64,000 nucleotides of DNA, taken from contig CANJZE010000012.1 of the NCBI GenBank assembly GCA_947479455.1, positions 1 to 64,000 on the forward strand. Reading direction: 5' to 3'. Position numbers and translations under genes: made by a program. The DNA is from Bacteroidota bacterium. GTDB lineage: Bacteria > Bacteroidota > Bacteroidia > Chitinophagales > LD1. The notes below the pieces were generated by a model that had not been told where the DNA came from, made no database searches, and saw only the letters and a program-made list of their open reading frames with translations. Below are positions 975 to 25,560 of this stretch, piece after piece. Each line of letters begins with the position of its first letter. Position 1 is the stretch's first letter.

Positions 975-1790
975 CTACGACTTTCTCCCTCGCATCTCAT
1001 ACATCCCCACCACCTTGAACACATCCGGCAGGTTTCCTGCAATGTAGTTGTCTTCGTTGTGTTGTGTGGCGGTATGAAAGCCCGAAACCTTTTCAAAATT
1101 ATCGTGCGTGTAGCTAACGGACTGAATCATTTCGGTTTCAAAACCCGCTTTACTCAGCAAAGCACGCATACCCGTTGGTGAATTTTGCTGCGTGGTGAAT
1201 TTGAATTTGTAGAACTGATTGATGTTCTCCAGAATTTCGGCAAAACGATTTTCTGCGAAACCGTTCAACGATTCATTCACTAAATAATCTTTGATATAAA
1301 TAAAGCCACCCGGCTTTAAGACTTTATGCGCTTCGCGCAAAACCTTTTCGTAATCGTAAGCATGGCAGAAGGATTCGAAAAAATAAATGCCATCATAAGT
1401 TTGAGCAGGAAAGTATTTCGATAGAAAATGAAAATCTCCTTGGCGCACCGTAACTTTTTGCGAAAGATTTTGTTCCGCAATCTTCGTTTGTGTAATCGCG
1501 CGCTGCTCTTCATTAATCGTAAGCGCATCAATATTTACACCATAGTTCTCCGCAAAAAACAAAGCCGGTCCACCGAAACCGCTGCCGGCATCAATCAATT
1601 TTTGCCCGGGCTTTAATTGCATGCTTTGCGCGAGATAGTTCAGCAAATCTTTTTCATCTACCGTGCGCGAACCCTGAATTACATCGCCCAAATGGGTTTG
1701 GTAAGTCTTATTATAAGTATCGTAATGCGCACTCACTTTGCTGGTGTGCCGCCCAATAAAATAGTTGCGAAGGAAGTTTGGCAGCTTCAT
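975..1790 (-). CDS. Class I SAM-dependent methyltransferase
   Basis: A 271-residue soluble enzyme with a Rossmann methyltransferase core. Motif I (LIDAGSGFGG) is at residues 65-74, an acidic post-motif follows, and LKPGGFIYIKDY near residue 157 is the usual motif III region. It resembles sterol/cyclopropane-type small-molecule methyltransferases in general layout, but the substrate is not evident. Its start overlaps the stop of the next upstream methyltransferase gene by four bases (ATGA), and that gene overlaps the exporter ATPase in the same way. I therefore infer a role in modifying the polysaccharide or its lipid carrier handled by the exporter, possibly a terminal methyl cap. It is last in the operon. 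Confidence 0.75.
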   Translation of the reverse strand: MKLPNFLRNYFIGRHTSKVSAHYDTYNKTYQTHLGDVIQGSRTVDEKDLLNYLAQSMQLKPGQKLIDAGSGFGGPALFFAENYGVNIDALTINEEQRAITQTKIAEQNLSQKVTVRQGDFHFLSKYFPAQTYDGIYFFESFCHAYDYEKVLREAHKVLKPGGFIYIKDYLVNESLNGFAENRFAEILENINQFYKFKFTTQQNSPTGMRALLSKAGFETEMIQSVSYTHDNFEKVSGFHTATQHNEDNYIAGNLPDVFKVVGMYEMRGRKS

Positions 1791-2569
1791 AATTTCTGAA
1801 GCAGGGTGTTATAACATTGTGTAACCGGAAAGTCGGGCACCGTAAAATTGAAATTTTTAATCGCGCTGTTCGCCACTTCTACATTTGCATTGCTCGAACG
1901 GTAATCATCTGTACTAATAGAAGGCAGTTTTATCAGTTTCAACTGAAAGCCGATGCTTTCGCAAAGCTTGATGTATTCATGCAAAGCGAGGTGAGTGAAA
2001 ATGCGCATACTGTCGGTTTCGCTTTGCAGCGTTTTCTTAAACGCCTCTTCGCGACCTTCGGCATTCTTCCACAACACAAAATGATATTTAATGAAAAGAA
2101 AACCACCGGGTTTTAAAATATCAAAAGCATCGCGCAATACTTTCTCTTTATCATACACATGCTCAAACGATTCCAGAAACATTACCATATCGAATGTCTC
2201 ATTCGAAAAAATATTTTTCATGAAATGAAAATCTGCCTGCTGATAATGCAGATTTCCTTTGGTTGATTTCTCTCCGTATGTTTTTTGTGCTGTGGCAAAT
2301 TCAGTTTCGCTGAAAGTAATTGCCGTTACATCGCAATTCTTTTTCTGTGCGAGATAAGCCGCAAAGGCACCGAGTCCGCAACCAGAATCGAGAACCTTCA
2401 TATTATCACCTACCGAAGAATCACGAATAATGTCTTCATACGTTTCTGCAATATCTGTAGCGCGATAACTCTGCACCGAGTTATCAGGAAAGGTAATTAC
2501 CTGATGCACGCGATTGTAAAAATCCGCTACCTCTTTCGATATGCTTTTCAATTTATCTGTTTCGTTCAT
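1787..2569 (-). CDS. Class I SAM-dependent methyltransferase
   Basis: A 260-residue methyltransferase with motif [13 protein letters not shown] at residues 59-70 and the [13 protein letters not shown] strand typical of motif III. It shares overall design with the downstream neighbour (for example FHFMKNIF against FHFLSKYF, then a Phe-Glu-Ser-Phe segment and a Tyr-Glu/Lys-Lys-Val-Leu-Arg helix), so the two probably arose by duplication. It overlaps the Wzt-type ATPase gene by four bases and the next methyltransferase by four, so translation is likely coupled. Substrate unknown; context suggests exported glycan. Confidence 0.75.
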
Positions 2570-3798
2570 TGTATTTTTTGCAGTAACGATTCTAAAACCG
2601 GTTTTAAAATTCCCGGCATCAGCACCGGAATTAAATTCTCTTTCCCTTCCGAAATTTTCAGTGTAATCAGTTTGTCAATTTTGAGCAACACTTTCTTTTC
2701 ACCCACAAACCTAAAGTTTACGGCATACATTTTTTCGTTGAGCAAATTGGCAGGCACAATAAATTCAATTCTGTATTTGCCTTGCTCAATGGTGGTTGAA
2801 ATAGTTGCCTGTTGCAGAGTAGACGAAGTAAAAGCAATCACTCCCGTTATATCACAAACCTGCACACTAAAACTTCCATTGATTGACTTTGGAATTTCTG
2901 CTTCGCAAAAAATGCGGAACGCTTTTTTGTTGCTGATGCCTTCTGCTTCTTCGGCATAATCTGCCAAACCGTAATTCAGTATTTTAATTTCTTCGGTAGA
3001 TGAAACCTCTTCCTTCTTCTTCAAATGAAAATGTTTGCCACCATCAAACGAAAAATATTCGGGAATAGCAATCGTGTAATATTTCTGAATGGCATCGCTG
3101 CTGCCCGTGTCGAGAATCTTTCCGTTTTCCATCAACACAATTCTATTGCACAAAGAAGAAATCTCATTCAGATTATGACTCGCAATTAAAAGCGTTTTGC
3201 CCTGCGCAATCAACTCTTCAATTTTGGTTTTGCACTTCATTTGAAAGTTCGCATCGCCCACATTGATGACTTCATCAATCAAATAGATGTCGGCTTCTAA
3301 ACAAGTAATAATCGAAAACGCCAAACGCAGATACATGCCCGCGCTGTAGTTCTTTACTGGCTCATCAATAAAATTCTCCACCCCGCTGAAATCAACAATC
3401 TCCTGATAATTTTCTACAATCTTCTCTTTGGTAAAATTGTAAAGCGAAGCAGAAAGAAAAATATTTTCTCTGCCCGAAAGCTCGGGATGAAAACCCGCGC
3501 CCACATCCAAAATGGAAACGGGCTTGCCGTAGAAATTTATTTCACCGCTGTCGGGCTGCATAATGCCGCTGAGTATTCTGAGCAATGTAGATTTACCCGC
3601 TCCGTTTCTTCCGATAATGCCGACCGCTTCTCCTCTCCTAACTTCAATTGAAACATCATCGAGTGCCTGAAAAACCGCAGCAGAGTTTTTCTTTGATGAA
3701 AACAAACCCGCCATGTTTTCTTTCAAACTATCGGCACGGTTCTCATGAATCTGAAAACTCTTCGAAACATTTTTTATTTCTAATGCTAACTCGCTCAT
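2566..3798 (-). CDS. Polysaccharide ABC exporter, ATP-binding subunit (Wzt type)
   Basis: The first 240 residues are an ABC ATPase: Walker [10 protein letters not shown] at 63-71, signature NYSAGM at about 150-155, Walker B DIYLIDEV at 170-177, and a switch His in LLIASHNL. The NYSAGM signature is typical of O-antigen and teichoic acid exporters. Residues about 250-410 form an extra beta-rich C-terminal domain, as in Wzt proteins that recognise the modified end of the glycan. It would energise export of a lipid-linked polysaccharide across the inner membrane together with the permease six bases upstream. Two methyltransferases follow with four-base overlaps. Confidence 0.85.
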
Positions 3799-3804
3799 GG
3801 TGCT

Positions 3805-4626
3805 TTATAAATGGTCGGCAATAAATTTTTCATTCCTCACAAAAAACACCAGACCGCTCACAAACAAAACAGACGCCAAAGCTAACGAAACAATTACCTG
3901 CATTTCGTTCACCGCAGTTCCTATGAATATCCAGCGATACAGCGCAATCACATTTGCCACGGGATGGAAATAATAAATGAAGTTGAACTCCTGAGGCACT
4001 ACTGTAGTCGGATAAAAAACAGGTGTGAGCCATATTCCAAAACCCACTAAAAAAGGAATGATATGATGCAAATCGCGGAAGCGCACCGTAAGCCCACTCA
4101 ACCATATTCCTCCCGATAAACCTGTAATTACATTCGCCAGCACCACCAACGGAAGAAAAAGAATGCGCCACGAAAACGGACAACCCATAATCAGCATTAG
4201 TATTACGAGCAACACAATTGAAATACTAAACTCAATTAAACCCGTGAGCGCTTTTGACAGCGGCAACACCAAACGAGGAAACTGAATTTTCTTAATCAAC
4301 TGTTGATTATTCATGAGCACGGTTCCCGCCTGACCTATGAGCGAGGTAAAATAAAACCAACCTATAATTCCGGTAAAAGCAAATACAGAATAAGGCACAT
4401 CAAGATGCAGCGGCATAACGCGCTGAAAAAAGAAACTGAAAATAATTAAGCCCGTTAGTGGCTGTATGACCGACCACAAAAGTCCCAGATAGGTTTGCGC
4501 ATACTGCACTTTCAAATCGCGCTTGGCAAAAGTGTAAATCAAATGCCGCACTTGCCACACTTCGCGCAAGTATGTAACAAGAGAAATTTGTCCGCCCTGA
4601 ATAGTTTTATAAATGCGTTGTTCCAC
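3805..4626 (-). CDS. Polysaccharide ABC exporter, permease subunit (Wzm type)
   Basis: A 273-residue ABC-2 type permease. The N-terminal cytoplasmic stretch ends in FAKRDLKVQYAQTYLGLLWSV, the usual amphipathic entry of O-antigen/teichoic acid export permeases, followed by about six hydrophobic segments. It is the first gene of a four-gene minus-strand operon (permease, ATPase, two methyltransferases). No glycosyltransferase or polymerase gene lies nearby: pckA is upstream and a toxin-antitoxin pair downstream. The glycan must therefore be built by genes elsewhere. Confidence 0.85.
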   Translation of the reverse strand: MEQRIYKTIQGGQISLVTYLREVWQVRHLIYTFAKRDLKVQYAQTYLGLLWSVIQPLTGLIIFSFFFQRVMPLHLDVPYSVFAFTGIIGWFYFTSLIGQAGTVLMNNQQLIKKIQFPRLVLPLSKALTGLIEFSISIVLLVILMLIMGCPFSWRILFLPLVVLANVITGLSGGIWLSGLTVRFRDLHHIIPFLVGFGIWLTPVFYPTTVVPQEFNFIYYFHPVANVIALYRWIFIGTAVNEMQVIVSLALASVLFVSGLVFFVRNEKFIADHL

Positions 4627-6509: not shown

Positions 6510-6911
6510 ATGAAATACATTCTTCTACTTCTGTTTTCTGCCACCATCATTTTTGGTGATGCTGCAAATTTAAATTCATCGCAATTAATCGGCTCTTGGA
6601 AAATGACTGATGTAAAAATTACCAAGCGTGGTAAAACCGCTACCGCCAAAGCAAAAACCGATTGCGATTTATGCGACCTTTACATTGACAAATTGGGCTT
6701 AACTTTTTCGGCCGATGGCAAAGTCAACTACAGCAATTTCGGCAACTCCGGTGATGTAAATTTTGAAATCAACGGAAACGTGGTTTCACTTTATACCTTG
6801 GTTAACGGTGTTCGTAACGCATTCGATTTTTCTGCCGTTTTAAAAAATGAAACCCTTACGCTCACTCATATTTCTCCTGAATCTGTTGAAACCTATACCC
6901 TCACTAAATAA
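6510..6911 (+). CDS. Secreted lipocalin-like small protein, unknown function
   Basis: A 133-residue protein with an N-terminal signal peptide (MKYILLLLFSATIIFGDA). The mature part starts with QLIGSWKMTDVKI and has alternating short beta-strand-like segments ending in LTHISPESVETYTLTK. This resembles the lipocalin-like domains common in Bacteroidota secreted proteins, but I cannot assign a specific family. A Cys pair in DCDLCDLY may form a disulfide. It ends 10 bases before the start of the giant surface protein, so the two may be co-transcribed. No T9SS sorting domain, so it is probably periplasmic. Confidence 0.6.
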   Translation: MKYILLLLFSATIIFGDAANLNSSQLIGSWKMTDVKITKRGKTATAKAKTDCDLCDLYIDKLGLTFSADGKVNYSNFGNSGDVNFEINGNVVSLYTLVNGVRNAFDFSAVLKNETLTLTHISPESVETYTLTK

Positions 6912-6921
6912 TTTTTCCTTT

Positions 6922-9900
6922 ATGAAAAAGCTCTACTTTTTAATTGCGCTATTCTGCTGCACATCGCTCCTTTCATTGGCACAAAATGTAAACCTGCAAG
7001 TAGTGGTTACCAAATTGGAACGCACTGCTTACGTTGATTGCGGTCTTTGCGGAGATCCTGATCCTACCTGGAAAATTCAAGGAACACACAATGGGGTAGG
7101 CGCACTTACTTACGGTCCTTACTGCTGGCATTATGCCGATATGAATCCTACTGTTTGGGATATTGCCGATAACACCATCATGAATATTGTAAACACCAAC
7201 GCCACTACTTTCACACTTGGTTTCAACGATGCGTTTGAAAAAAGTTGCAGCAACAACAACTGTACGTATGAGTCGTATAATTTTTTCACCTGCTTTCCTT
7301 CGGTAAATGGCGATAGCAGAAGATGCCAGAATACTTCGCTTGTTAATTCAAATTTCAGAACTACTGCGCCTTGCCAATGGCATACACAAAACTCTGCTTT
7401 CTGTGGCGACTACCGTTTCGAATATTCTTATTTCTGGTCGTTCAATTACGCGCCTTCGTTAGTCATTCAGCCCGCTCCAAGTGCGCTTCTTTGTCTAGGA
7501 ACTACAACCACACTTACCGTAGTTGCAGCAACTGATATTAACGGGTGGAACACAGGCGTAAATTACCAATGGCAAATGTCAACCAGTACCGCTTGCCCCG
7601 GCACCGGATGGACAGATATACTAGGAGCTACATCAAATATTTTTACGCCTTCCGAAATTCCGGGCACGCGATTGTATCGCTGCAAAGTAACGTCTAATTG
7701 TAATCCCGATTTTTCAAGCAACACCACTATCTCAAATTGTTCGGTAGTCACATATAATCCCATTGGTTCACCCGGAGATTTAGTGCCTGATATTGTTTCG
7801 GGTATTTGCGGCTCTACCGTTTTGCCCGGCTCGGTACATCAATTAGGAATTCTTACACCGCCAAATGCCGGTGCTGTTTTAGGTGCTACTGATTATGCCT
7901 GGTCGGCCGATGGCGGTTCACCCTTATCTTTCAACGGACAAAATTTTACATGGACAGCGCCAACCAATCCCGGCACTTACACCATCAACTTAACTTACAT
8001 TGATAACTGTCCGCAGCCCGATGCCCAAGCAAATGCCTGTGTAGTGAATGTAGGTTCTGCCACTTGCGATTTTGCTTATGTGGCTATCTACGGTCAAGAT
8101 TCTGTTTATCGTGGCGGGCCCGATAATCCATACAAAACGTTGGAGTATACATTGACTCAACTCAACGGCAGAAAATACATACGCATGGCTACAGGCGTTT
8201 ATAACGAAACCAATGCTTTGCACTTGCAAAACGATTTAGTTATTGAAGGCGGATATAAAGTAGTTGGAAATATTTGGTCGAAAAACAATTCAGATTCTAC
8301 AACCATCATTGGAAACGGATTAGAAACTATTAGTGGCGATGTAGCACACCGCGTTTGTTTTATTTCTGATGCAAACACCAATTGGCGTTTGCAGGACTTA
8401 GTCATCCAAACTTCCGATGTTTCGTTTACTACTACCAACGGAAAAGGATATTCCAATTACGCCTTGCTCGCAATAAATAGTTCTTCGGGCTTCGAAATTG
8501 TTCGTTGTAAAATTACTTCGGGCAATTCGGCCAAAGGAGTAAATGGAACAACTCCCGGTGGTGCAGGTGGTGCAGGTGGCGCAGGAACAGGAGGTAGTGG
8601 TGGTGGTGGTAGCACACAAGCGTGTAATGGAAGTGGCAATAACGGAGTAGGAGGAACTGTTGGAAACGGTGGGGCATCGGCAGGTGGTGCAGGAAGCGCC
8701 TGCGGTGGAAGCGGTTGCAATTTTTTTGGATGTAACGCAAGTGGATGTAACGCAGGTGGCGGAAGCGGTGGTGGTAACGGAGCGGCTGGTGCTGGATACG
8801 CGGCAGGGGTTCGACCTTTAACTCCGGCTGTAGCTTCGCCTTATTATATTCCGGCTGGTCAATCGCCATCGGGTTCGAATGGTTTTGGCGGTGGCGGTGG
8901 CGGTGGCGGTGGTGGTGGTGATGTAGGTACATGTTGCACTTGCGGTTGCGGCTCTGGCGCACCCAATGGAGGCGGTGGTGGAAATGGCGGTGCAGGTGGA
9001 CTGCCGGGTAGCGGAGGATTTGGTGGTGGTGGTACATTCGGAATTTTTGCCTCAGGTGGTTCTGCAGGAACATTAACCACAACTTTAGTTACTGCAGGTA
9101 ATTTTGGACTAGGTGGTGATGGTGCGGCTGGCCAATCAGGTGCAGGCGGACAGCCCGGTGCTAACGGAGTGAACCACGGTGGTTGCGATGGCGGTGTAGG
9201 AGGTAATGGTGGTGCAGGAGGTACTGGCGGCAATGGCGGAAGAGGACAAGATGGTGCCAATGGGTTGAGTCAAAATATTGCCACAGCAGGCGGTGCGGTT
9301 ATCACCGGTTCTTCAACAGGAGTGCCGAATACTTTTGTAATAGGCATCAATTATCAAAACGCAAAAGCTTGTATCAATTCAGAAATTGAATTAACAAAAT
9401 CTTCAGGCGTATGGACCCTCCCCGGTGGAATGAATTTCGTGAACGACATGCGCGATAATCCTGCGGGCTTTCCTATTTCAAGTTACAATGCTTCCAGCAG
9501 TCCGCTCTTGGTTTATGTAACTACGCCTTCGGTTACTTACGATTTAACTATCAACGGAAACGTGTATGCAAAATATATTTCTATCGCAAGTGATAACCGC
9601 GCATTGCCTGCTATTTCAAATTCTTCATCTATCATTTGTTTAGACGGAACTGATTCGCTCACTGCTACACATTGGGGAACCGAGGTGGAATACGATTGGA
9701 GAATTTATCAGGGAACCAACGTCAACTCTCCGCTTTATCAATCTTCATTGCCGGGCCCTGTAATTAATTTTTATGGTTTTGCTGCGGGACTTTATACCAT
9801 TCGCTATCGCGTGCGCGAAAGCTGTTGCGGTTGGAGCAAACCTGTTTTTGATACCCTTCGCATTATGCCGTTGCCTACTTTGTATAATGTTTATGGTGGA

Positions 9901-12174
9901 GGATATTATTGCCCGGGTTCAACAGGTGCAGTAGTAAATCTCAGCGGCTCGGAGCCGGGAGTAAAATATATTTTGTTGTATAACGGCAATGCAGTTGACT
10001 CACTTATTGGCAGCGGTGGACCATTAGCTTTTGCTGCGCAAACGGGCATTGGAAATTACACCGTTGTTGCGGTTCGCTTTACGGGTTGCGCGGCAGATAT
10101 GTTCGGCACAGCAAGTATTGGAATGTATCCGGCACCGCAGGCATTTAATGTCTCGGGTAATGATACACTTTGCATACAGGGAGCTAATCTTTCAGCTACG
10201 GTTACACTCGATGGTTCTGAATTAGGAACCAATTATCAATTAATTAGAAACGGAATTATTCCGGTGGGTGCGCCAATACCCGGAAGCGGTTTGGCTTTAC
10301 AATTCACCAACATAACTTCCATAGGAGTTTATACAGTCTTTGCTTCGAACCCAACTACCGGTTGCACAGCATCAATGAACGACAGTGCAGTAATTGATTA
10401 TGCTCCGCCTATTACTGCTGCAAATGTAGTGGGTGGTGGTGCATATTGCGCGGGCGATTCAGGTGTGGTGATAGGATTAGATGCTTCGGAATTAGGAACA
10501 GTTTATCAATTGTTGCAAGGTGGGGTATTGCCTTCTGCCACTCCTATTTTTGGAACGGGTAGCGCAATCAATTTTAATCGCGTAACCGTTGCAGGATATT
10601 ACAAAGTGAAAGCAACAAGCGCATTTGGTTGCGAAAGCTGGATGACCGATTCGGCATGGGTAAAAGTGTTGACCTTGCCAACGATTACTTCGGTGAGCGC
10701 TAACGATGTGGTGTGTGCAGGAAATTCAAACGGAGTAATTACCGTTGGTGCAGTAACCCAAAATGGTTCGCTTGTTTATTCCATTGACAGTACCACTTCT
10801 TATTCTGCCAATAATGTTTTTGTTGGTCTTGCTGTTTCTTCTTACAACGTATTTGTAAAAGATGATAGCGGATGTGTGGCGCGTTATGTGGTTAATCCGG
10901 TACAGGTAAAAAATCCAATCACGGTACCGCTGGTCATTACTTCGGTTATCGTTAGCGATTTAAAATGCGCTGGCGATTCAAGCGGCACTATTACCATTCA
11001 TGCCCTTACACCAAACGGTTCTATCATTTACTCAATTGACAGCGCCTTGAATTATTCAGCCAATAATGTTTTCACTTCGCTTCCTGCTGCTTACTACAAT
11101 GTAGTGGTAAAAGACGATAGTGGATGTATAGCGCGTTATGTTGGCAATCCGGTGGAGTTAGCGAGCCCTTCGGCACTCGTGCTTTCGATGCACGGTGTTA
11201 GCCCCGATTGTTTTGGTAACCGCACTGGTTCGGCAACGGTGGTGGCAAGTGGAGGAACTCCCGGTTATTCTTATACATGGAACACTTCGCCTTCCGACAT
11301 TGATTTTACCATTGATAATTTAGGTGGTAATTCTACCTACTCGGTTACCGTTATGGACAGAAATAATTGCACTGCCGAAAAATCGGTAACACTTACTGAA
11401 CCGAGTGAGGTAGTAGTAAATGTTTTTCCGAGCAACGTAAAATGTTTTGAAGGAAACAACGGCTCAGTCATTATTAGTGCTACCGGAGGTTTATCGCCTT
11501 ACGATTATTACCTCAATGGCATTTATCAGTTCGATAGTGTTTACACAGGATTGACAGCAGGAAATTATTTAGCTACTGCGCAAGATGCCAACCATTGTGT
11601 GGGCTCAGCAACTTTCTCTATTACCCAACCTCAAGCATTCACGGTTTTTGCTGGCGTTGATATTCTTTCATCGCATGGGCAAACCGTGCAGTTGCTTGGT
11701 ACGGCTTTTTCGCTCAATGGAATTAGTAGCTATCATTGGTCACCAAACTTCCACATTGATTGCGACACCTGCGCGCAACCAATGGTTAGTCCCGATACTA
11801 CCACTACTTATATTCTTACAGTTATGGATGGTGATAGTTGTGTGGGTTACGATTCGGTAATTGTTTTTGTAAAACACAACGGCCCCTATTTTATTCCTAC
11901 AGCCTTTACACCAAACGATGATAAGTTGAACGACTATTTTGAATTTAATATTCTAGGTGCAGAAGTAGTAGAGGTGAGCATTTTTAATCGTTGGGGCGAG
12001 CAAGAATATTTCAATGCCAACCAACACAACGGTATTGAGAATAATGGCGATGCCTGGGACGGAAAAAAGAACAACAAGTTCATGCCGTTTGATACATATA
12101 CCTATCAACTTAAGATTCATTACTACGATGGCACCGATGATATGATTAGCGGAACGGTGACGTTGATGAAGTAA
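6922..12174 (+). CDS. Giant T9SS surface protein with Gly-rich domain, SprB repeats and type B sorting domain
   Basis: A 1750-residue protein with signal peptide MKKLYFLIALFCC...SLAQ. The frame is open upstream to 6847 but the ATG at 6922 is directly followed by the signal peptide. Rough order: Cys-rich N-terminal beta region (20-390); a beta-helix-like segment (390-540) with the QDSVYRGGPDNPYKTLEY start seen in pectate-lyase-type repeats; a Gly-rich tract (540-780) with scattered Cys; three Ig-like modules of about 90 residues (985-1250); four SprB-type repeats (1253-1573); and a C-terminal gliding-type (CHU_C, T9SS type B) domain beginning FIPTAFTPNDDKLNDYFEF (about 1655-1750). It is expected to be secreted across the outer membrane and act as an adhesin or matrix protein. 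Function is inferred. Confidence 0.85.
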   Translation: MKKLYFLIALFCCTSLLSLAQNVNLQVVVTKLERTAYVDCGLCGDPDPTWKIQGTHNGVGALTYGPYCWHYADMNPTVWDIADNTIMNIVNTNATTFTLGFNDAFEKSCSNNNCTYESYNFFTCFPSVNGDSRRCQNTSLVNSNFRTTAPCQWHTQNSAFCGDYRFEYSYFWSFNYAPSLVIQPAPSALLCLGTTTTLTVVAATDINGWNTGVNYQWQMSTSTACPGTGWTDILGATSNIFTPSEIPGTRLYRCKVTSNCNPDFSSNTTISNCSVVTYNPIGSPGDLVPDIVSGICGSTVLPGSVHQLGILTPPNAGAVLGATDYAWSADGGSPLSFNGQNFTWTAPTNPGTYTINLTYIDNCPQPDAQANACVVNVGSATCDFAYVAIYGQDSVYRGGPDNPYKTLEYTLTQLNGRKYIRMATGVYNETNALHLQNDLVIEGGYKVVGNIWSKNNSDSTTIIGNGLETISGDVAHRVCFISDANTNWRLQDLVIQTSDVSFTTTNGKGYSNYALLAINSSSGFEIVRCKITSGNSAKGVNGTTPGGAGGAGGAGTGGSGGGGSTQACNGSGNNGVGGTVGNGGASAGGAGSACGGSGCNFFGCNASGCNAGGGSGGGNGAAGAGYAAGVRPLTPAVASPYYIPAGQSPSGSNGFGGGGGGGGGGGDVGTCCTCGCGSGAPNGGGGGNGGAGGLPGSGGFGGGGTFGIFASGGSAGTLTTTLVTAGNFGLGGDGAAGQSGAGGQPGANGVNHGGCDGGVGGNGGAGGTGGNGGRGQDGANGLSQNIATAGGAVITGSSTGVPNTFVIGINYQNAKACINSEIELTKSSGVWTLPGGMNFVNDMRDNPAGFPISSYNASSSPLLVYVTTPSVTYDLTINGNVYAKYISIASDNRALPAISNSSSIICLDGTDSLTATHWGTEVEYDWRIYQGTNVNSPLYQSSLPGPVINFYGFAAGLYTIRYRVRESCCGWSKPVFDTLRIMPLPTLYNVYGGGYYCPGSTGAVVNLSGSEPGVKYILLYNGNAVDSLIGSGGPLAFAAQTGIGNYTVVAVRFTGCAADMFGTASIGMYPAPQAFNVSGNDTLCIQGANLSATVTLDGSELGTNYQLIRNGIIPVGAPIPGSGLALQFTNITSIGVYTVFASNPTTGCTASMNDSAVIDYAPPITAANVVGGGAYCAGDSGVVIGLDASELGTVYQLLQGGVLPSATPIFGTGSAINFNRVTVAGYYKVKATSAFGCESWMTDSAWVKVLTLPTITSVSANDVVCAGNSNGVITVGAVTQNGSLVYSIDSTTSYSANNVFVGLAVSSYNVFVKDDSGCVARYVVNPVQVKNPITVPLVITSVIVSDLKCAGDSSGTITIHALTPNGSIIYSIDSALNYSANNVFTSLPAAYYNVVVKDDSGCIARYVGNPVELASPSALVLSMHGVSPDCFGNRTGSATVVASGGTPGYSYTWNTSPSDIDFTIDNLGGNSTYSVTVMDRNNCTAEKSVTLTEPSEVVVNVFPSNVKCFEGNNGSVIISATGGLSPYDYYLNGIYQFDSVYTGLTAGNYLATAQDANHCVGSATFSITQPQAFTVFAGVDILSSHGQTVQLLGTAFSLNGISSYHWSPNFHIDCDTCAQPMVSPDTTTTYILTVMDGDSCVGYDSVIVFVKHNGPYFIPTAFTPNDDKLNDYFEFNILGAEVVEVSIFNRWGEQEYFNANQHNGIENNGDAWDGKKNNKFMPFDTYTYQLKIHYYDGTDDMISGTVTLMK

Positions 12175-15111: not shown

Positions 15112-16416
15112 TTATCCCTTGCGTAGCAGGAAATCTAAACTCACCGGAATGTATTTTGGATTAACACGAACAATAAATGCAAACAGGAAGAGCACAAGCA
15201 AAGGTGCTTTATAGCGAACAAGATTGCCTAGAACCGGTGTGCATACTCCTATAATGGCAAAGTAGGCGAGAGAAACTGTCAGTAAAAAAAAGAAGAGATT
15301 AAGATGGGTGTATTGCTTTCGATTTCTAAAAGCGATACACATGATTAAGAAAGGAATGATGAAAAAATTTTCAGCGGCACTTGCCATCATCATTATGTTT
15401 TTTGCTTCCCAGATATAAGGACGAGTAATGGTGTTCCAAACTCCCACACAGGAAGTTTTAAAAATATTTAAAGCATCATCTTTCAATTCAGGAATTTCAA
15501 TTCTGCTGCCTGCTTTAAAATATTCCGCCTCTTTAACCGAGTGCGTTTGCTTATTAATCAGCATTTGCTGCAAATTTATTTTGGGAACGATGTAGCGAAT
15601 GTTGAATGCCAAGAGCAACAAAACCAAATTGACGAACACGTATTTCACCAGAATAAATGTGGGTGTTTCTCTTTTTCTAAAAAGCAGAAAGGCGATAGTT
15701 GCAGGAAGCAAACAGGCGAGAACGAAAAATTTGGTAAAGAGAATGAGCAGCGCGCCTGCAAAGAGTGCAGCTAATGAACTACGCGTTCTATAATTTGTAA
15801 CGCCATAAACGAAAAGACCAAGCCCTAAAATTAAAACCGGCTCTTTCATAACTCCGCTTGTCCAGAATAAAACAGATGGGAGAACCAAGACAGGAATAGC
15901 GAGAAGAGAATTTTTGACATCGGTAAAACTCAAAATGGCGTTAGTGATGAGAATGAAACCAAAAAGCGAAATGAAACACATGAACAGAATGTGCACGAAA
16001 TAAGTTTTGAATGAAACAAACATCAACAGCACGTTGATTCGAATAATAGTTTTGTTTTCATTCACGGGTGCTTCATCAAAATTGCGCTCCCAGTTTTTCA
16101 TTTGCGAAGTGAAGGGCACGGTGGTTTCGTCTTCCTTTCCTATCAGCAATTGAAAAAATGCTTTCGGGTTTTCATTAGCTGTGTGGCGAAGTATTAAAGC
16201 ATCGTTATAAAATTTATGCACGTCATTGTTTTGGACATCCTTATAGTAGAAAGTATAGATGAACCAGATAAAAATACCCACTACAAATTTCAGATTGAAT
16301 AAAACGTGCGTAACGAGCGGTTTGTAATTTTTGAATTGAAAAATTTTAAACCGAAAAATGAGCAGGTTGAAAAGCACGAAATAAAATGCGGTAAGAAAAA
16401 TTTCTTTAGCAGCCAT
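15112..16416 (-). CDS. Multi-pass inner-membrane protein, unknown function
   Basis: A protein of about 434 residues with around ten hydrophobic segments and a long loop after the second (KDVQNNDVHKFYNDALILRH ... NENKTIIRINVLLMF). The spacing of helices and the Tyr/Asp-containing loop are reminiscent of membrane glycosyltransferase or polymerase-like proteins, but no catalytic motif is clear and I do not assign a function. The frame is open to 16500, which would overlap the divergent HhH gene by 22 bases; the ATG at 16416 (MAAKEIFLTAFYF) avoids this and begins directly before the first membrane helix. Confidence 0.6.
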   Translation of the reverse strand: MAAKEIFLTAFYFVLFNLLIFRFKIFQFKNYKPLVTHVLFNLKFVVGIFIWFIYTFYYKDVQNNDVHKFYNDALILRHTANENPKAFFQLLIGKEDETTVPFTSQMKNWERNFDEAPVNENKTIIRINVLLMFVSFKTYFVHILFMCFISLFGFILITNAILSFTDVKNSLLAIPVLVLPSVLFWTSGVMKEPVLILGLGLFVYGVTNYRTRSSLAALFAGALLILFTKFFVLACLLPATIAFLLFRKRETPTFILVKYVFVNLVLLLLAFNIRYIVPKINLQQMLINKQTHSVKEAEYFKAGSRIEIPELKDDALNIFKTSCVGVWNTITRPYIWEAKNIMMMASAAENFFIIPFLIMCIAFRNRKQYTHLNLFFFLLTVSLAYFAIIGVCTPVLGNLVRYKAPLLVLFLFAFIVRVNPKYIPVSLDFLLRKG

Positions 16417-16478
16417 TACATCGAAAGTAAAAAATAAGGGAGTTTTAAAGCAGCAAAGAGTTTTTTTTAAATTGCAGT

Positions 16479-17441
16479 ATGTGGCGTTGGCTAGAAACAT
16501 ACTTCACTTTTACAAGTAGCGAAAAGGCGGGAATCATTTTTCTGGTTCTTGCATCTTTGCTTGCTTTTATTGTTCCCGCAACTTATCTTTATTACAAACC
16601 AATTGAACATATCGATAATTCTCCTTACCTAGTGGAAGTTGATTCCTTTATCGTTGAATTCAACGAAAAGAAACAACTTGCTTTGTTGGCCGATAGCATT
16701 CGTAAAGACAGTCTTCTTTTTGCCCGCAGAGATTCAACTTCAGATTCAAGTTTAACTTTCACAAACAAAACACTTCGTCAGATTGCTTATTTCGAATTTG
16801 ACCCGAACAAAATTGGAATGGCTGAATGGATGAAACTTGGTTTTAGCGAAAAACAAGCAGCTAGCATTGAAAAATTAAAACAGAAAGGGTATAAATTTCG
16901 CAAGCCCGAAGATTTGAAGAGCGTTTTTGTAGTGGGGGCAGAAAATTACAATCGTCTTGCCGCTTACATAAAAATTGACCAGAACGATTTTCCTAAAAAG
17001 GAATTTCCAAAAACAGTTTATCCCGAAAAGCTGAAAGAAAAATATGTGGTAGATATCAACGCAGCTGATTCATCTTTGTTTGAAAGACAGAGAGGAATTG
17101 GGCCATCATTGGCAAGTCGTATCATTAAATACCGCGAGCGTTTAGGTGGTTTCGTTTCAGCCGAACAGATTAGAGAAGTTTGGAATTTTCCTGACAGCAC
17201 CTATCAAAGTTTGAAAGACAAATTTGTAGTGAATGAAATTGTGGTGAAGAAATTGAAACTTAATACCGATGATTTTGAAACGCTGCGTAAGCATCCTTAT
17301 ATCAATTACTCTTTTGCAAAAGTTTTTATGGCTTACAAAAAGGAGCACGGTAATTTTAAAACCATAGAAGACCTCAGAAAAATTTCGGTAATAAACGACA
17401 GCATTTTCAGAAAAATGCAGCCGTATCTTTCAGCCGAGTAG
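16479..17441 (+). CDS. Helix-hairpin-helix (ComEA-like) membrane-anchored protein
   Basis: A 320-residue protein with one N-terminal membrane helix (about residues 18-38, GIIFLVLASLLAFIVPATYL) and several helix-hairpin-helix units after it: near FDPNKIGMAEWMKLGFSEKQ, then INAADSSLFERQRGIGPSLA with IIKYRERLGGFVSAEQI, then YINYSFAKVFMAYKKEHGNF. The middle unit is the classical ComEA DNA-binding pair (NAA..L..l.GIG...A..I...R...G.F). It probably binds double-stranded DNA in the periplasm, as in natural uptake, but other competence genes are not in view. It converges on the transglutaminase gene with two bases between stops. Confidence 0.8.
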   Translation: MWRWLETYFTFTSSEKAGIIFLVLASLLAFIVPATYLYYKPIEHIDNSPYLVEVDSFIVEFNEKKQLALLADSIRKDSLLFARRDSTSDSSLTFTNKTLRQIAYFEFDPNKIGMAEWMKLGFSEKQAASIEKLKQKGYKFRKPEDLKSVFVVGAENYNRLAAYIKIDQNDFPKKEFPKTVYPEKLKEKYVVDINAADSSLFERQRGIGPSLASRIIKYRERLGGFVSAEQIREVWNFPDSTYQSLKDKFVVNEIVVKKLKLNTDDFETLRKHPYINYSFAKVFMAYKKEHGNFKTIEDLRKISVINDSIFRKMQPYLSAE

Positions 17442-19866: not shown

Positions 19867-22134
19867 TTGAAAAGCTTATTACCCATATTATTTCTCTCCT
19901 TCCTTTTTCAGAATGTTTCTGCTCAAAACACTTTTCGGGCAATTGTAAAAAGTGAAGGAGAAGAAGCTGAATTACTTGCGGGAACAACTGTTCATGTCGT
20001 AGATACCACAATTGCGGCAGTTGCCGATTCAAATGGATTGATAGTTCTTGAAAATATTCCGAATGGAGAAAAAACAATTGAGTTTTCCATTCTCGGATAT
20101 TTTAAAAAGAGAATTAAAATAAGTTTTCCTCAACCAAAAAATTCTGCTCTTACTGAAATAAAATTGCAAACACAAGCAGAAGAAATTGATGAAGTGGTTG
20201 TTACATCCACACGCAATTATCAGAAACCTGAATACCTCCCTACCAGAGTAGAAGTGGTAGCGGAAGAAGAAGTAGAAGAGCGTTCGCACGATAAACCTTC
20301 CGATGTTTCACATGTGGTGCGTGAGCAACCGGGTGTACAAGTACAACGCACATCGGCCACCGCAGGCACTATGAGCATTCGCTTACAGGGTTTGAACAGT
20401 CGCTACGTGCAAATTTTAAAAGATGGATTTCCGCTCTTTGGTGGTTTCTCGAATGTAATTGGCATTACTCAAATTCCACCACTAGATTTGAAGCAAGTGG
20501 AAATTATCAAGGGTCCGTCATCAACACTTTATGGTGGTGATGCAATTGCAGGAGTCATCAATTTGATTTCGAAAGAGCCATCAGAAAACCCGATTTACGA
20601 TATTATGTTTAATGGTGAAAGTTCCTTTGCCTTCGATGGCGGTTTATATGCCAGCCAAAAAATAAAATGGTTTGCATTTTCACTCACCGGCATTTATCGT
20701 TATCAAAAAGAAAAAGATTGGAGCGGTTATGGGTTTTCAGAAACACCTCGATTGAGTCGTTATAATATTTCGCCTCAATTGTTTTTCGATTTATCAAAAC
20801 ATGCGAAACTGAATATTGGCGGAACCTATACTTATGAAAATCGTTTTGGTGGAGCCATGAAATACTTAAGAAACGAAGTTGACAGTAACTATAACTATTT
20901 CGAAAAAAATATTTCTACTCACGCTTCTTCTAACTTCAAATTTGATTACGATTTTGAAAAGAACGGAAAGTTAACGGCAAAAACTTCGTTCAATTATTTC
21001 ATTCGCGATTTAAAAATTCCTTACTATTTTTTTAAAGGGACGCAGTTGGCTTCGGCTTCGGAAATTAATTACCACCTCACCCGCAAAAAGCATGATGCCG
21101 TTATTGGTGTTGATTTTCGCACCGATAGATTTACCGAAGACGATGATTCTGCTTTGGTAAAACGCAGTTATAGTTTTTATACGGTTGGTTGGTTTGCGCA
21201 ATACCTTTACAACTTCAATGAAAAAACAACTATTGAAGGTGGTGTGCGAATTGACTACAACAACATTTACAAAGTAAATGTGCTGCCGCATCTCGCGCTT
21301 CGTCAAAAATGGAATGAAGCTTTTTCAACGCGGTTAAATTTTGGAATGGGTTACAAACTGCCCACCGTTTTTCAGGATGAAAGTGAAGAGGCACGGTTCA
21401 TTAATGTGCAACCAATTGCGGTTGGTGTAAAACCTGAACTTTCATTGGGCGGAACGGTAGATTTGCAAATTAAACTTCCCAATTTCAACGGCTTGAATAT
21501 TACTCTTCATCAACTTTATTTCTACACGCATATCCTTCATCCGCTCCTGCCTCTGGAAACTGCTGACCCGCTAAATCATTCCCTTGATTCCATCAATATC
21601 AGCTATACCAATGGAAACGGTTTTATTAGAAGTGGCGGAGTAGAAACGGGAATCAAAATCAGTTATCGTGGTATAGGTGCATCCTTGGTTTATTCTTACA
21701 CCGATAACAACAGACAGATTAACAATGTAAGAAGTATAGCCCCGCTAACTTCAAAACATATTGTTTCCATTCTTGCTGGCTACGAAATCAAAAATTTTTT
21801 TGCCGGCATTGATGTGTATTACTATAGCCCAGTGAAATTGAGCGATGGCAGAGTTGGTAAATCAATTTGGGAAATCGGACTGAATCTTCAGTATGCTTTC
21901 AAATACTTAATTCTGTTTTCAAATTTTGAAAACATAGCAAACATCCGTCAAACATCTTATGGTCCTGTGGTGTATCCTAACCCGGGTTATTCTCATCCGC
22001 GGTTTTCTGAAATCTATGCTCCTCTTGAGGGCCGTTTGATTAATGTTGGTTTTAAACTGCGCCTAGGTGCTTTTTCTAAAAAGAGTAAGGACGATGACGG
22101 CTTGGAGCGTTTGAAGAAAAAAGACAACAATTGA
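19867..22134 (+). CDS. TonB-dependent outer-membrane receptor
   Basis: A 755-residue receptor using a TTG start. Signal peptide 1-19 (MKSLLPILFLSFLFQNVSA), then a carboxypeptidase-regulatory-like domain (about 22-100) typical of Bacteroidota receptors, a TonB-box-like EVVVTSTR, the plug domain (about 120-235, with VQVQRTSATAGTMSIRLQGL and VEIIKGPSSTLYGGDAIAGV) and a 22-strand-type barrel to the C-terminus. The plug resembles vitamin/siderophore-type (BtuB/Cir) rather than SusC-type receptors, which are longer. No SusD partner is adjacent. Ligand unknown. It follows the YrdC gene by 51 bases. Confidence 0.85.
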   Translation: MKSLLPILFLSFLFQNVSAQNTFRAIVKSEGEEAELLAGTTVHVVDTTIAAVADSNGLIVLENIPNGEKTIEFSILGYFKKRIKISFPQPKNSALTEIKLQTQAEEIDEVVVTSTRNYQKPEYLPTRVEVVAEEEVEERSHDKPSDVSHVVREQPGVQVQRTSATAGTMSIRLQGLNSRYVQILKDGFPLFGGFSNVIGITQIPPLDLKQVEIIKGPSSTLYGGDAIAGVINLISKEPSENPIYDIMFNGESSFAFDGGLYASQKIKWFAFSLTGIYRYQKEKDWSGYGFSETPRLSRYNISPQLFFDLSKHAKLNIGGTYTYENRFGGAMKYLRNEVDSNYNYFEKNISTHASSNFKFDYDFEKNGKLTAKTSFNYFIRDLKIPYYFFKGTQLASASEINYHLTRKKHDAVIGVDFRTDRFTEDDDSALVKRSYSFYTVGWFAQYLYNFNEKTTIEGGVRIDYNNIYKVNVLPHLALRQKWNEAFSTRLNFGMGYKLPTVFQDESEEARFINVQPIAVGVKPELSLGGTVDLQIKLPNFNGLNITLHQLYFYTHILHPLLPLETADPLNHSLDSINISYTNGNGFIRSGGVETGIKISYRGIGASLVYSYTDNNRQINNVRSIAPLTSKHIVSILAGYEIKNFFAGIDVYYYSPVKLSDGRVGKSIWEIGLNLQYAFKYLILFSNFENIANIRQTSYGPVVYPNPGYSHPRFSEIYAPLEGRLINVGFKLRLGAFSKKSKDDDGLERLKKKDNN

Positions 22135-22159
22135 TTTTTGTTAGAACAACCTGTTTTAC

Positions 22160-22190
22160 ATAATTCCTGTCTTCCAAAGGCGGGAATTAT
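22160..22190 (+). terminator. Terminator of TonB receptor gene
   Basis: ATAATTCCTG and CGGGAATTAT pair (one G-T) around an 11-base loop, 25 bases after the stop, followed by TGTTT. Weak T tract, so moderate confidence. Confidence 0.5.
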
Positions 22191-22230
22191 TGTTTCCTCC
22201 AAAAATGTATCTTCGACCCCGTTTTTACCA

Positions 22231-25200
22231 ATGAAAAAAATATTCCCGTTCTCATTTATTTTTCTCTTCTGTTTAGTAGCACTTCAATCGTATTCTCAAA
22301 TTTGGAATTACTATGGAAACACGATTCAGCAAAGTTGCCAGTGTTATCAATTGACAGATAATGTAGGAAGTCAATCAGGTTCAATGTGGAATCTGAATCA
22401 ATTGAATTTGAATAATCCTTTCGATTTTACTTTCGATGTTTTTTTAGGAACGCATGATGATGGTGCTGATGGAATTGTTTTTGTTCTTCAAAACACAAAC
22501 AACACGGCTCCGCCTTCTATGGGTGGTGGTTTAGGTTATTCGGGTTTCCCTAATCAATCGATAGGTGTGGAGTTAGATACTTACGATAACAGTGGTGCAG
22601 GTGAAATTTCGCAAGATCATCTCGCGCTGGACCTAAATGGAAATACCGTTACGCCCACCGCAGGTCCTGTGCAAATGAGTGGTACTTCGGCCGATGTAGA
22701 AGACGGTGCATGGCACACGGTTCGTTTTGTGTGGAATCCAACGACTCAAACTTTGTCGGTTTACTTTGACGGGGTCTTCCGTTTTCAATACACTTTCCCC
22801 GGTGGTTTAGCAAATTCCGTTTTTGCAGGTAACCCGAATGTTTACTGGGGTTGGACTGGTGCAACCGGTGGCTCCTTCAACACACAATCGGTTTGTGTTC
22901 ACTTCACTTCCGATTTTTTAGCCGGAACAAATTATAGTGCATGTGGGGTAGACACCGTTCACTTTCAAAGCACTGCAACTTCGGGTTTGAGTAACATAGT
23001 TGATTATGCCTGGGATTTTGGTGATGGTACTCCTGTGGTTCATGCACAAAATCCAATTCACACTTTTCCGAACATTGGAACGTTTGATGTATTGCTTACC
23101 ATCACCGACCAAAGTTTGTGCACAGCTACGCAAACACGTCAAGTAGTTATTTATCCTGTGCCTGTGATTACGCCTACGCACACAAACGTAGCTTGCAATG
23201 GCGGGTTAACAGGGAATGCAACGGCAACAGCTTCTATTGGAACACAGCCATATACTGCTTTGTGGAGTTCAGTGCCATCGGCAGTCAATCCAAACGGACC
23301 AACTCTTTTTACCAATACAAATTTAAGTGCGGGAAATTACACCGTAACAATTACTGATTTCAATTCGTGTTCCACTTCGGCTAGTTATAACATTACCCAA
23401 CCTGCAACTGCCTTAAGCGCAACAGCAACTTCAACTAACGTTACCTGCTTTGGTGCTAACGATGGAACTGCTGCAATTACAATTGGTGGCGGAACAACGC
23501 CATATACTTATCTCGGTATTGGAATTTCTGCAGGGGTCACAAACCTAACTGCACTTGCTCCGAATAATTATGGAGGAACTGTGTTGGATGCAAATGGATG
23601 TAGTCAGGCAATTGCCTTTGTAATTACAGAGCCTACAGATATTGTAATCAATCAAACACACACGAACATTGCTTGCTTTGGCAATGCAACAGGTGACATA
23701 ACTTTAAACGTGAGCGGTGGAGTAGGACCAATGTATTCTTACAATTGGAATCCGAACGTGAGTTTGTCGAACATTGCGACTTCGCTTGCAGCAAATACTT
23801 ACAACGTTACTGTGATTGACCAAACTAATTGTCAGAAAACAATTTCGGTTACACTTACACAACCTGCACAGCCACTTACCATCAATGTTTCTTCTACCAA
23901 CGTAAGTTGTTTTGGTTTTAATAACGGCACTATCACTATTGCAACTTCGGGTGGTACACCAAATTATACTTACACATGGAATCCAAATGTAAGCACCACA
24001 AATTCTGCAACAGGGTTGACACCAAATTCATATTCAATAACCGTTGCTGATGCCAACAATTGCAGTGTAGTTCCTAACGTTGTAATTTCTCAACCTAACC
24101 AGCCGCTTACACTCGATACTGTTGCTACTGACTTAACTTGTTTTCAAAGTAGCGATGGAACGGTGGCTACCAACGCAACTGGAGGAACTTTTCCTTATAC
24201 CTACAACTGGAATCCGAATATTGGTTTAGTTGGATCTGCTTCGTCATTGCCTATTGGAACTTATCTGGTTACGGTAACTGATAACAACGGATGCAGTGGC
24301 ACTGCCAGTTTTGGATTAACACAACCCCCATTACTTACCAGTTCTGAAACGCATGTAGATGTATTGTGTAATGGCAATAGCACGGGCTCAATAGACATTA
24401 CGGTAAATGGTGGCACGCCAATTTATTCTTACGCTTGGAATCCGAATGTATCCGCTACAAATACTGTTGCAAATATTCCTGCTGCTTTGTATAACGTAAC
24501 TATTACCGATGCGCATGGTTGCTCGTTGATTCAAACAGCAAATGTTACCGAGCCACCTGCTATAATTTTATTTACAACTGAAACCGATGTGCTTTGCAAT
24601 GGCGATAACACCGGAACAATTACTGCAACAGGTTCGGGTGGAGTATTACCTTATAATTTTTCTGCAACGCCCGATGGTGTAAATATTCTCAACGCGGCAT
24701 CTGGACAATTTCAAAATCTTTTTGCAGGAAATTATTCGGTGAGTGTTACCGACCAACATGCTTGCGTTACTACAGGAACAATTATGGTGAACGAGCCACC
24801 TATTTTAACTGATATTACAACACCAACTCCAACTACTTGTTATCATTATTCCGATGGTAGAGTTAGTGTAGCTGTTGCAGGCGGAGTGCCGCAATATTCA
24901 TTCGAATTTTCTACTGGCTTGATAGGAGACACAGGATTGCTCACCGGATTAATTGCCGGAACATATTCGGTTACCGTTACCGATGCGAATGGCTGCACCA
25001 TTACAGATTCTGCAATTGTAACTCAACCCGATTCGGTTTTAATTGATATTACACCTAACCCAACAGAAGTGAAACTGGGAGATGAATTGCAACTTGCTTC
25101 AACTACAAACCAAAGCGGCAATGTTTATTTTGATTGGAGTCCGAAATTTGGTTTGACTTGTTACGATTGCAATGCACCTCTTTTCAGCGGAGTTTATTCG

Positions 25201-25560
25201 CAAGATTATTTGGTAATAGCAACGAATGACGCAGGCTGCATTGGCACTTTTAATTTTACGGCAAAAGTGATTCCCATCTACGATGTATTTTTACCAAACG
25301 CCTTTACACCAAACGGTGATGGCGTAAACGATTTCTGGCAAATGTTCGGGAGGTTTAAAGGAATGAAACAAGTGGAAGTAGCGGTGTTTAATCGCATTGG
25401 CGAAAAAGTTTTTCAGAGCAACGAACTCGATTTTAAATGGGACGGAAATTATAAAGGAGTGCATTCGCCACCCGGAGTTTATACCTACTACGCAAAATTT
25501 GTGTGGATGAACAACCACAGCGATTCAGATTATAAAGGAACAATTACGCTGTTGCAATAA
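22231..25560 (+). CDS. T9SS surface protein: L-type lectin, PKD, eight SprB repeats, type B sorting domain
   Basis: A 1109-residue exported protein (signal peptide MKKIFPFSFIFLFCLVALQS). Residues about 26-228 form a legume-type lectin domain (PFDFTFDVFLGTHDDGADGIVFVL, IGVELDTYDNSG, WHTVRFVWNP), suggesting glycan binding. A PKD domain follows (about 243-308, AWDFGDGTPVVHAQNPIHTF). Eight SprB-type repeats of about 75 residues fill 310-933, each with an N-terminal Cys motif (TNVxCFG or similar) and ending in a TQP/TEP signature. The C-terminus (about 1013-1109, FLPNAFTPNGDGVNDFW) is the gliding/type B sorting domain. The frame is open to 22138, but the ATG at 22231 begins the signal peptide. Likely a secreted adhesin. 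Confidence 0.88.
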   Translation: MKKIFPFSFIFLFCLVALQSYSQIWNYYGNTIQQSCQCYQLTDNVGSQSGSMWNLNQLNLNNPFDFTFDVFLGTHDDGADGIVFVLQNTNNTAPPSMGGGLGYSGFPNQSIGVELDTYDNSGAGEISQDHLALDLNGNTVTPTAGPVQMSGTSADVEDGAWHTVRFVWNPTTQTLSVYFDGVFRFQYTFPGGLANSVFAGNPNVYWGWTGATGGSFNTQSVCVHFTSDFLAGTNYSACGVDTVHFQSTATSGLSNIVDYAWDFGDGTPVVHAQNPIHTFPNIGTFDVLLTITDQSLCTATQTRQVVIYPVPVITPTHTNVACNGGLTGNATATASIGTQPYTALWSSVPSAVNPNGPTLFTNTNLSAGNYTVTITDFNSCSTSASYNITQPATALSATATSTNVTCFGANDGTAAITIGGGTTPYTYLGIGISAGVTNLTALAPNNYGGTVLDANGCSQAIAFVITEPTDIVINQTHTNIACFGNATGDITLNVSGGVGPMYSYNWNPNVSLSNIATSLAANTYNVTVIDQTNCQKTISVTLTQPAQPLTINVSSTNVSCFGFNNGTITIATSGGTPNYTYTWNPNVSTTNSATGLTPNSYSITVADANNCSVVPNVVISQPNQPLTLDTVATDLTCFQSSDGTVATNATGGTFPYTYNWNPNIGLVGSASSLPIGTYLVTVTDNNGCSGTASFGLTQPPLLTSSETHVDVLCNGNSTGSIDITVNGGTPIYSYAWNPNVSATNTVANIPAALYNVTITDAHGCSLIQTANVTEPPAIILFTTETDVLCNGDNTGTITATGSGGVLPYNFSATPDGVNILNAASGQFQNLFAGNYSVSVTDQHACVTTGTIMVNEPPILTDITTPTPTTCYHYSDGRVSVAVAGGVPQYSFEFSTGLIGDTGLLTGLIAGTYSVTVTDANGCTITDSAIVTQPDSVLIDITPNPTEVKLGDELQLASTTNQSGNVYFDWSPKFGLTCYDCNAPLFSGVYSQDYLVIATNDAGCIGTFNFTAKVIPIYDVFLPNAFTPNGDGVNDFWQMFGRFKGMKQVEVAVFNRIGEKVFQSNELDFKWDGNYKGVHSPPGVYTYYAKFVWMNNHSDSDYKGTITLLQ

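Follow-up and report, generated by a model that had tools for sequence, protein, structure and literature searches.

The locus raises the question of whether a long glycine-rich block within a predicted cell-surface protein is a folded domain or a flexible linker, and what such a domain might present. The window (the whole 64,000 nt stretch of DNA that was analysed) carries a 1775 aa ORF at 6847-12174 (+), and the segment 8541-9260, which is in frame with it, encodes the block (residues ~566-805). A signal-peptide-like stretch, read by eye, opens at Met26 (6922), which may be, and probably is, the ORF's true start. At the C-terminus, residues 1683-1774 (11893-12168) form a type B sorting domain of the type IX secretion system (T9SS), with a TIGR04131 score of 42.2 bits against a curated cut-off of 35 and a CHU_C match (PF13585) likewise above its cut-off. 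The protein also has four SprB-repeat stretches (PF13573), the best of them at residues 1452-1481 (11200-11289, E = 4.3e-18); apart from SprB and CHU_C, a Pfam scan of the whole protein lists just a PKD-like match below threshold, and no PE domain. The genome also encodes, at another location, the T9SS translocon protein SprA. Further, the whole protein has 208 matches within its own genome, mostly to the half containing the SprB repeats and the C-terminal domain; judged from these sequences, T9SS proteins with SprB repeats appear to be very numerous in this genome.

The initial annotation described about 240 residues of nearly half glycine with cysteine clusters, embedded in a T9SS protein, and proposed counting the glycines for periodicity; the composition, the clusters and the export assignment all hold, and the count exceeds chance. 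In particular, residues 566-805 contain 105 Gly among 241 residues (44%) and 10 Cys, including C624, C629 and C634 in GCNFFGCNASGCNAG and C696, C697, C699 and C701 in GTCCTCGCG. Glycines separated by three residues number 64, versus 44.9 ± 3.8 in shuffled sequences (z = 4.97; none of 5000 shuffles reached 64); the same shuffles give z = 3.0 at lag 6 and no increase at lags 1, 2 and 4. When the lengths of Gly runs and gaps are preserved (residues 561-815), the lag-3 count is 66 versus 53.2 (z = 4.55; 0 of 10,000). The signal sharpens when the count is restricted to glycines that 13 or more of 14 sequences share (46 versus 17.7, z = 9.1; lag 6, z = 5.6), and it is equally strong across 34 homologues, own copy included, at an 80% threshold (z = 9.2). 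Each of the 34 homologues taken singly has a lag-3 z above 4, these being mutually related and so not 34 independent trials. Overall, conserved glycine recurs at every third residue beyond what composition explains, which is the pattern sought for a bundle of polyproline-II (PPII) or polyglycine-II (PGII) helices. Only 7 of 255 core residues are charged, and the block has 10 aromatic residues, for example in PYYIP and NFFG.

Tandem-repeat slippage was considered as the source of this pattern and rejected. TRF lists five rows of short DNA repeats, none longer than 43 bases, which together account for little of the block, and synonymous sites have diverged strongly; with core pS values of 0.41 and 0.50 versus homologues L013 and L014, the repeats are not recent. 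Two long antisense ORFs overlie the block (8513-9082 and 8859-9260, both on the minus strand) and are probably a by-product of its glycine codons.

Homologues of the block are found in 36 of 60 near genomes (E ≤ 1e-8), in 66 of 298 genomes of the order, own genome included (E ≤ 1e-10), and in 1 of 296 genomes of the phylum, which is the own genome, where contigs 25, 3 and 15 carry additional copies. A DNA pattern for GCNxxGCNA finds 62 stretches in named genomes, 15 of which carry a homologue (E ≤ 1e-3), the remaining 47 being taken as chance hits. Homologue-bearing records beyond the near-genome, order and phylum samples include titles from Crocinitomicaceae and Bacteroidia bacterium KatS3mg025; two homologues' records bear the KatS3mg label, which we take to denote hot-spring metagenome-assembled genomes (MAGs; Katase hot spring). 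In the KatS3mg026 record, the homologue's reading frame is interrupted within the Gly block (~7150-7520 of that record) and the match continues in another frame, either a real change or an assembly error; this homologue (L088) was removed from the alignments before counts were made. The 34-sequence set leaves out homologues covering fewer than 380 model positions.

Across this set, the core is 252-279 aa long in 33 of 34 homologues and 224 aa in the remaining one, and orthologues at 62-96% identity have 0-3 gap columns in the core alignment. Conservation is concentrated on glycine: in an alignment of 14 sequences, invariant positions make up 49 of 108 core Gly versus 4 of 147 core non-Gly residues, while the flanks have 4 of 23 invariant Gly and 14 of 218 invariant non-Gly residues. 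The poly-Gly run (residues 679-691, GF followed by 11 Gly; 8881-8919) has a mean column entropy of 0.19 bits over residues 681-691 in the 14 sequences. Against the two closest orthologues, dN/dS is 0.043 and 0.056 in the core and 0.060 and 0.077 in the flank; with L015 and L016 as reference, the core values are 0.086 and 0.111 and the flank values 0.073 and 0.093, so constraint on the core does not exceed that on the flank in every comparison, and dS saturates in the core for relatives beyond these two. The constant length, the low dN/dS (about 0.04-0.09 versus closest orthologues) and the invariant glycines argue that the block is no linker, and its conservation together with the Gly periodicity speaks against disorder.

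An AlphaFold2 model of residues 403-915, built from only 15 aligned sequences, is of mixed confidence, with a mean pLDDT of 73 and a pTM of 0.65. Its N-terminal part (residues 405-557, 8059-8517; model 1-158, pLDDT mostly 85-94) is a predicted right-handed parallel beta-helix with beta-helix matches in the PDB, and the Ig-like tail falls below 50. From model residue 161 onward, the means of successive ten-residue blocks, which take in the rung between the two insertions described below, are 83, 69, 63, 63, 82, 74, 46, 61, 89, 79, 57, 84, 84, 57, 72, 90, 91, 90, 89, 92, 89, 66, 79, 92 and 90; values of 84-92 thus prevail in the later half of the Gly block, while model residues 225-234 lie below 50. 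The Gly block modelled alone (residues 557-818) has a pTM of 0.64 and a mean pLDDT of 69, with its Gly stretches at 82-91, so that the structure prediction called for by the initial annotation does not return a wholly disordered block. DSSP assigns almost no helix or strand to the Gly parts, as expected for PPII helices. The evidence supports a block that is folded rather than disordered.

The model also revises where the block sits. The initial annotation placed it between a beta-helix-like segment and Ig-like modules; the beta-helix neighbour is supported, and the block is instead split into two insertions lying inside the beta-helix. Insertion 1 (residues 558-729, 172 aa; 8518-9033) is 44% Gly, with the three-residue period and the majority of the cysteines, and insertion 2 (residues 750-807, 58 aa; 9094-9267) is 48% Gly and contains C780 and GGNGGAGGTGGNGGRGQDGANG. 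In the AlphaFold2 model the beta-helix resumes between them, in a rung at residues 730-749 (9034-9093; strands at model 328-333, 338-342 and 345-347), and again after insertion 2, in the last modelled rung at residues 808-825 (9268-9321; strands at model 406-411 and 416-419), structural matches stopping near model 423. The strands at model 328-347 and 406-419 thus belong to the beta-helix. By eye, across 14 sequences, the rung before insertion 1 (SNYALLAINSSSGFEIVRCKITSGNSAKGVNG) resembles the rung after it (GGTFGIFASGGSAGTLTTTLVTAGNFGLGGDG), and both enter a run of Gly triplets at an equivalent position. The model places the two insertions, with fair to good confidence, at the same corner of successive beta-helix rungs.

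Structural comparison of this predicted model finds that its rungs match those of solved right-handed parallel beta-helices, and that they do so across the insertions. In particular, residues 36-208 of 6kfn align with model 4-423 over 153 residues (Z = 15.7, rmsd 2.6); a solved span of 173 residues therefore covers model 4-423, leaving ~230-250 extra residues that are mainly the two insertions. Other strong solved matches are a phage tail fibre (9rkv) and pectate lyase Pel9A (1ru4), and viral DUF1565/beta-helix models match as well. The isolated Gly block has a single PDB match in Foldseek at E ≤ 10, a tail-tip chain of mycobacteriophage Bxb1, which is weak and non-significant (E = 0.19, prob 0.03, TM 0.11; realigned Z 2.7, VIA) and is no evidence of kinship. 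Known PPII bundles are not among the Foldseek matches listed for the 403-915 model or for the Gly block alone, which we take as uninformative; similar to the phage brush domains, for which the available text of PMC13243795 reports that DALI was 'blinded' by the beta helix, the Foldseek matches here are dominated by that fold.

The cysteines lie mainly in two sites of insertion 1: a loop with C619, C624, C629 and C634 (CGGSGCNFFGCNASGC, 8701-8748) and the CCTCGC cluster of C696, C697, C699 and C701 (8932-8949). Their gains and losses were followed on a tree of 33 sequences from which the Cys-rich columns were left out and L032 was dropped. Joint changes are seen for C619 with C634 on 3 of 3 branches, for C629 with C697 on 2 of 2, and for columns 611 and 680, where paralogues have Cys, on 2 of 2; columns 595 and 620 have two such branches in common, and one clade of four sequences without 619/634 carries 595/620 instead. 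The pairings 699/780 and 696/701 are weaker, with null frequencies of 0.06 and 0.10. These patterns suggest disulfides, and with few co-change events and many pairs compared, uncorrected for their number, they do so at most. An even cysteine count was tried as a test of disulfides and failed: just 18 of the 34 homologues have an even number in the core, which means that some Cys must lack a partner there. The Cys loops have column entropies of 0.82-0.88 bits, versus 1.39 for the non-Gly residues of insertion 1 and 1.26 for the PYYIP loop; being conserved among orthologues, they may be structural or may bind an invariant ligand.

The reading that we consider probable, with some reserve, is a T9SS surface protein whose beta-helix corner insertions form one disulfide-braced PPII/PGII bundle that presents recognition loops. 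T9SS would export a protein with a right-handed parallel beta-helix in which one corner loop, at the same place in two consecutive rungs, has expanded into Gly-rich insertions (172 and 58 residues). Both insertions would fold jointly into one bundle of left-handed, three-residue-per-turn PPII/PGII helices, with the glycine at every third position facing the packed core and disulfides cross-bracing the whole, and the bundle would jut sideways from the beta-helix. We infer the PPII geometry, the joint packing of the two insertions and the disulfides. Short, partly Cys-stapled loops (GCNxFGCNASGC, PYYIP and GTCCTCGCG) could then form a surface that recognises a ligand on cells or in the environment, in the manner of phage gp38 tips; the adhesive role and its ligand are a guess from the domains that accompany the block. 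The initial annotation's suggestion of ice, glycan or surface binding is unsupported. The gp38 proteins of phages PP01 and S16 show that a beta-helix with a PGII bundle can be built as a receptor-binding tip.

Several other readings account for part of these observations. A disordered, flexible Gly-rich linker or loop, tolerating glycine and separating domains, would suit the low-complexity composition, the scarcity of charge in the core and the part of the AlphaFold2 model with pLDDT below 50. We hold it to be distinctly improbable: the length is near-constant, the period-3 glycines are individually invariant, dN/dS is ~0.05 and the cysteines are conserved, and pLDDT is 84-92 over much of the block. 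An alternative role for a folded block, as a PGII 'sail' lying against a membrane or lipid surface with no specific receptor, follows from the Gly-triplet logic that it shares with PE_PGRS proteins; the sails have a hydrophobic edge in the available part of PMC9436101, and the block has its 10 aromatics, with PYYIP and NFFG among them. That the block is held inside a beta-helix, with a T9SS sorting domain and Cys loops present, makes such a sail unlikely.

Two further readings concern the residues on the scaffold. The close cysteine spacing, CCxCxC and CxxxxCxxxxC, could reflect a metal-binding module in which the clusters on a Gly scaffold hold metal rather than disulfides; the gain and loss of cysteines in pairs (619/634, 595/620, 629/697) suits disulfides in an exported protein and the block has no family match, which leaves metal binding very improbable. 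An ice-binding face is more improbable than any of these: the two homologues from KatS3mg-labelled MAGs, taken to be from a hot spring, argue against it as the family role, and no flat Ala/Thr face was identified. It would place the protein beside snow-flea antifreeze protein, and Gly-x-x repeats rich in Gly, Ala, Ser, Thr and Asn and containing Cys do resemble those of the collembolan antifreeze proteins, which combine Gly-x-x repeats with disulfides (PMC10235112, in its available part).

The preferred reading, a beta-helix-borne PPII/PGII bundle, has a close counterpart in phage gp38. The accessible portion of PMC12892980 describes the PP01 and S16 proteins as a beta-helix domain with a PGII sandwich and receptor recognition loops; the present protein resembles the gp38 tip (S16, 6F45; PP01) in combining a beta-helix, a poly-Gly II lattice and protruding loops, here as a prediction. 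The central helices of gp38 have six and seven Gly in the part of PMC8409303 available, compared to the 11-Gly run here. Unlike gp38, the present protein is a T9SS protein with Cys clusters, and its loops are conserved among orthologues where the receptor loops of gp38 are hypervariable. Phage brush domains (LSH1, mycobacteriophage Bxb1) likewise carry Gly-rich fingers on a beta-helix, according to the same excerpt of PMC13243795, and Bxb1 has polyglycine-rich domains (PMC13252515, available part); those are parts of the virion, whereas this is a cellular surface protein whose Bxb1 match is not significant. For mycobacterial PE_PGRS, surface-exposed bacterial proteins, a Gly-triplet PGII sandwich has been modelled (PMC9436101, as far as its text was available). 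The Gly-triplet pattern in a bacterial surface protein is common to both; here, however, the PE domain is absent, a T9SS sorting domain is present, the block is inserted in a beta-helix, and its length and sequence are conserved, unlike those of the polymorphic PE_PGRS. PPII bundles are reviewed in PMC8409303, and ALK/LTK are named among the Gly-rich ones in PMC13243192. With snow-flea antifreeze protein, Obg, acetophenone carboxylase and ALK/LTK the block has in common a glycine at every third position and, if the reading is right, the three-residue helix turn (available parts of PMC8409303 and PMC10235112), while the host fold and its location differ. If the reading is right, the fold type is already known and the T9SS-protein setting is an extension.

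Searches by sequence return little for the block. It has no Pfam, NCBIfam or PHROG family match, and an alignment-wide Pfam scan is likewise empty. A PDB search with the core profile gives only collagen IX (E = 0.25) and Drosophila CG11501 (E = 2.1), both taken as chance; the CNIFGCN motif (8701-8748) also occurs in CG11501 (3zzo), which we take as coincidence. No detectable sequence relation to Gly-rich PPII-bundle proteins was found among PDB chains. An alignment-based search of genome contigs and viral contigs gave no relative, with patterns that perhaps rested largely on poly-Gly, and a tblastn search of 50,697 phage records and a PHROGs search gave no match, low-complexity filtering weakening both. 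A literature search covering few subscription journals found no description of a comparable domain for T9SS proteins or for Bacteroidota.

A broader proposal, to which we give slightly less than an even chance, is that of an undescribed, order-wide Bacteroidota adhesin family in which beta-helix corner loops have turned into disulfide-stapled PGII bundles, a cellular counterpart of the phage tip; paralogues within one genome would share the Gly lattice and differ in their sets of Cys loops, yielding several recognition surfaces. PPII bundles rich in glycine are rare, and annotations frequently label them as disordered or low-complexity; the beta-helix-borne architecture is rare too, its best-known examples so far being the receptor-binding tips of phages and the PE_PGRS proteins of mycobacteria. 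If the reading is true, this large family of conserved sequence would take a fold known from phage tips, PE_PGRS, Obg and antifreeze proteins into the T9SS surface proteins of environmental bacteria, which suggests that recognition by a polyglycine bundle on a beta-helix has recurred as a design. Moreover, the family's many homologues would allow tests of how the Gly lattice tolerates substitution and of stabilisation by disulfides.

Elsewhere in the window, a second T9SS type B protein (22138-25557, +) has an L-type lectin domain, PKD, eight SprB-repeat stretches and CHU_C, and adjoins a TonB-dependent receptor (19867-22131). Two minus-strand ORFs, of 1189 aa (28365-31934) and 462 aa (15112-16500), have no Pfam match at E ≤ 0.001. 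Further, the minus-strand region 978-4626 encodes two methyltransferases next to an ABC transporter pair with a weak Wzt C-terminal match, which, on the gene content, is possibly a polysaccharide exporter.
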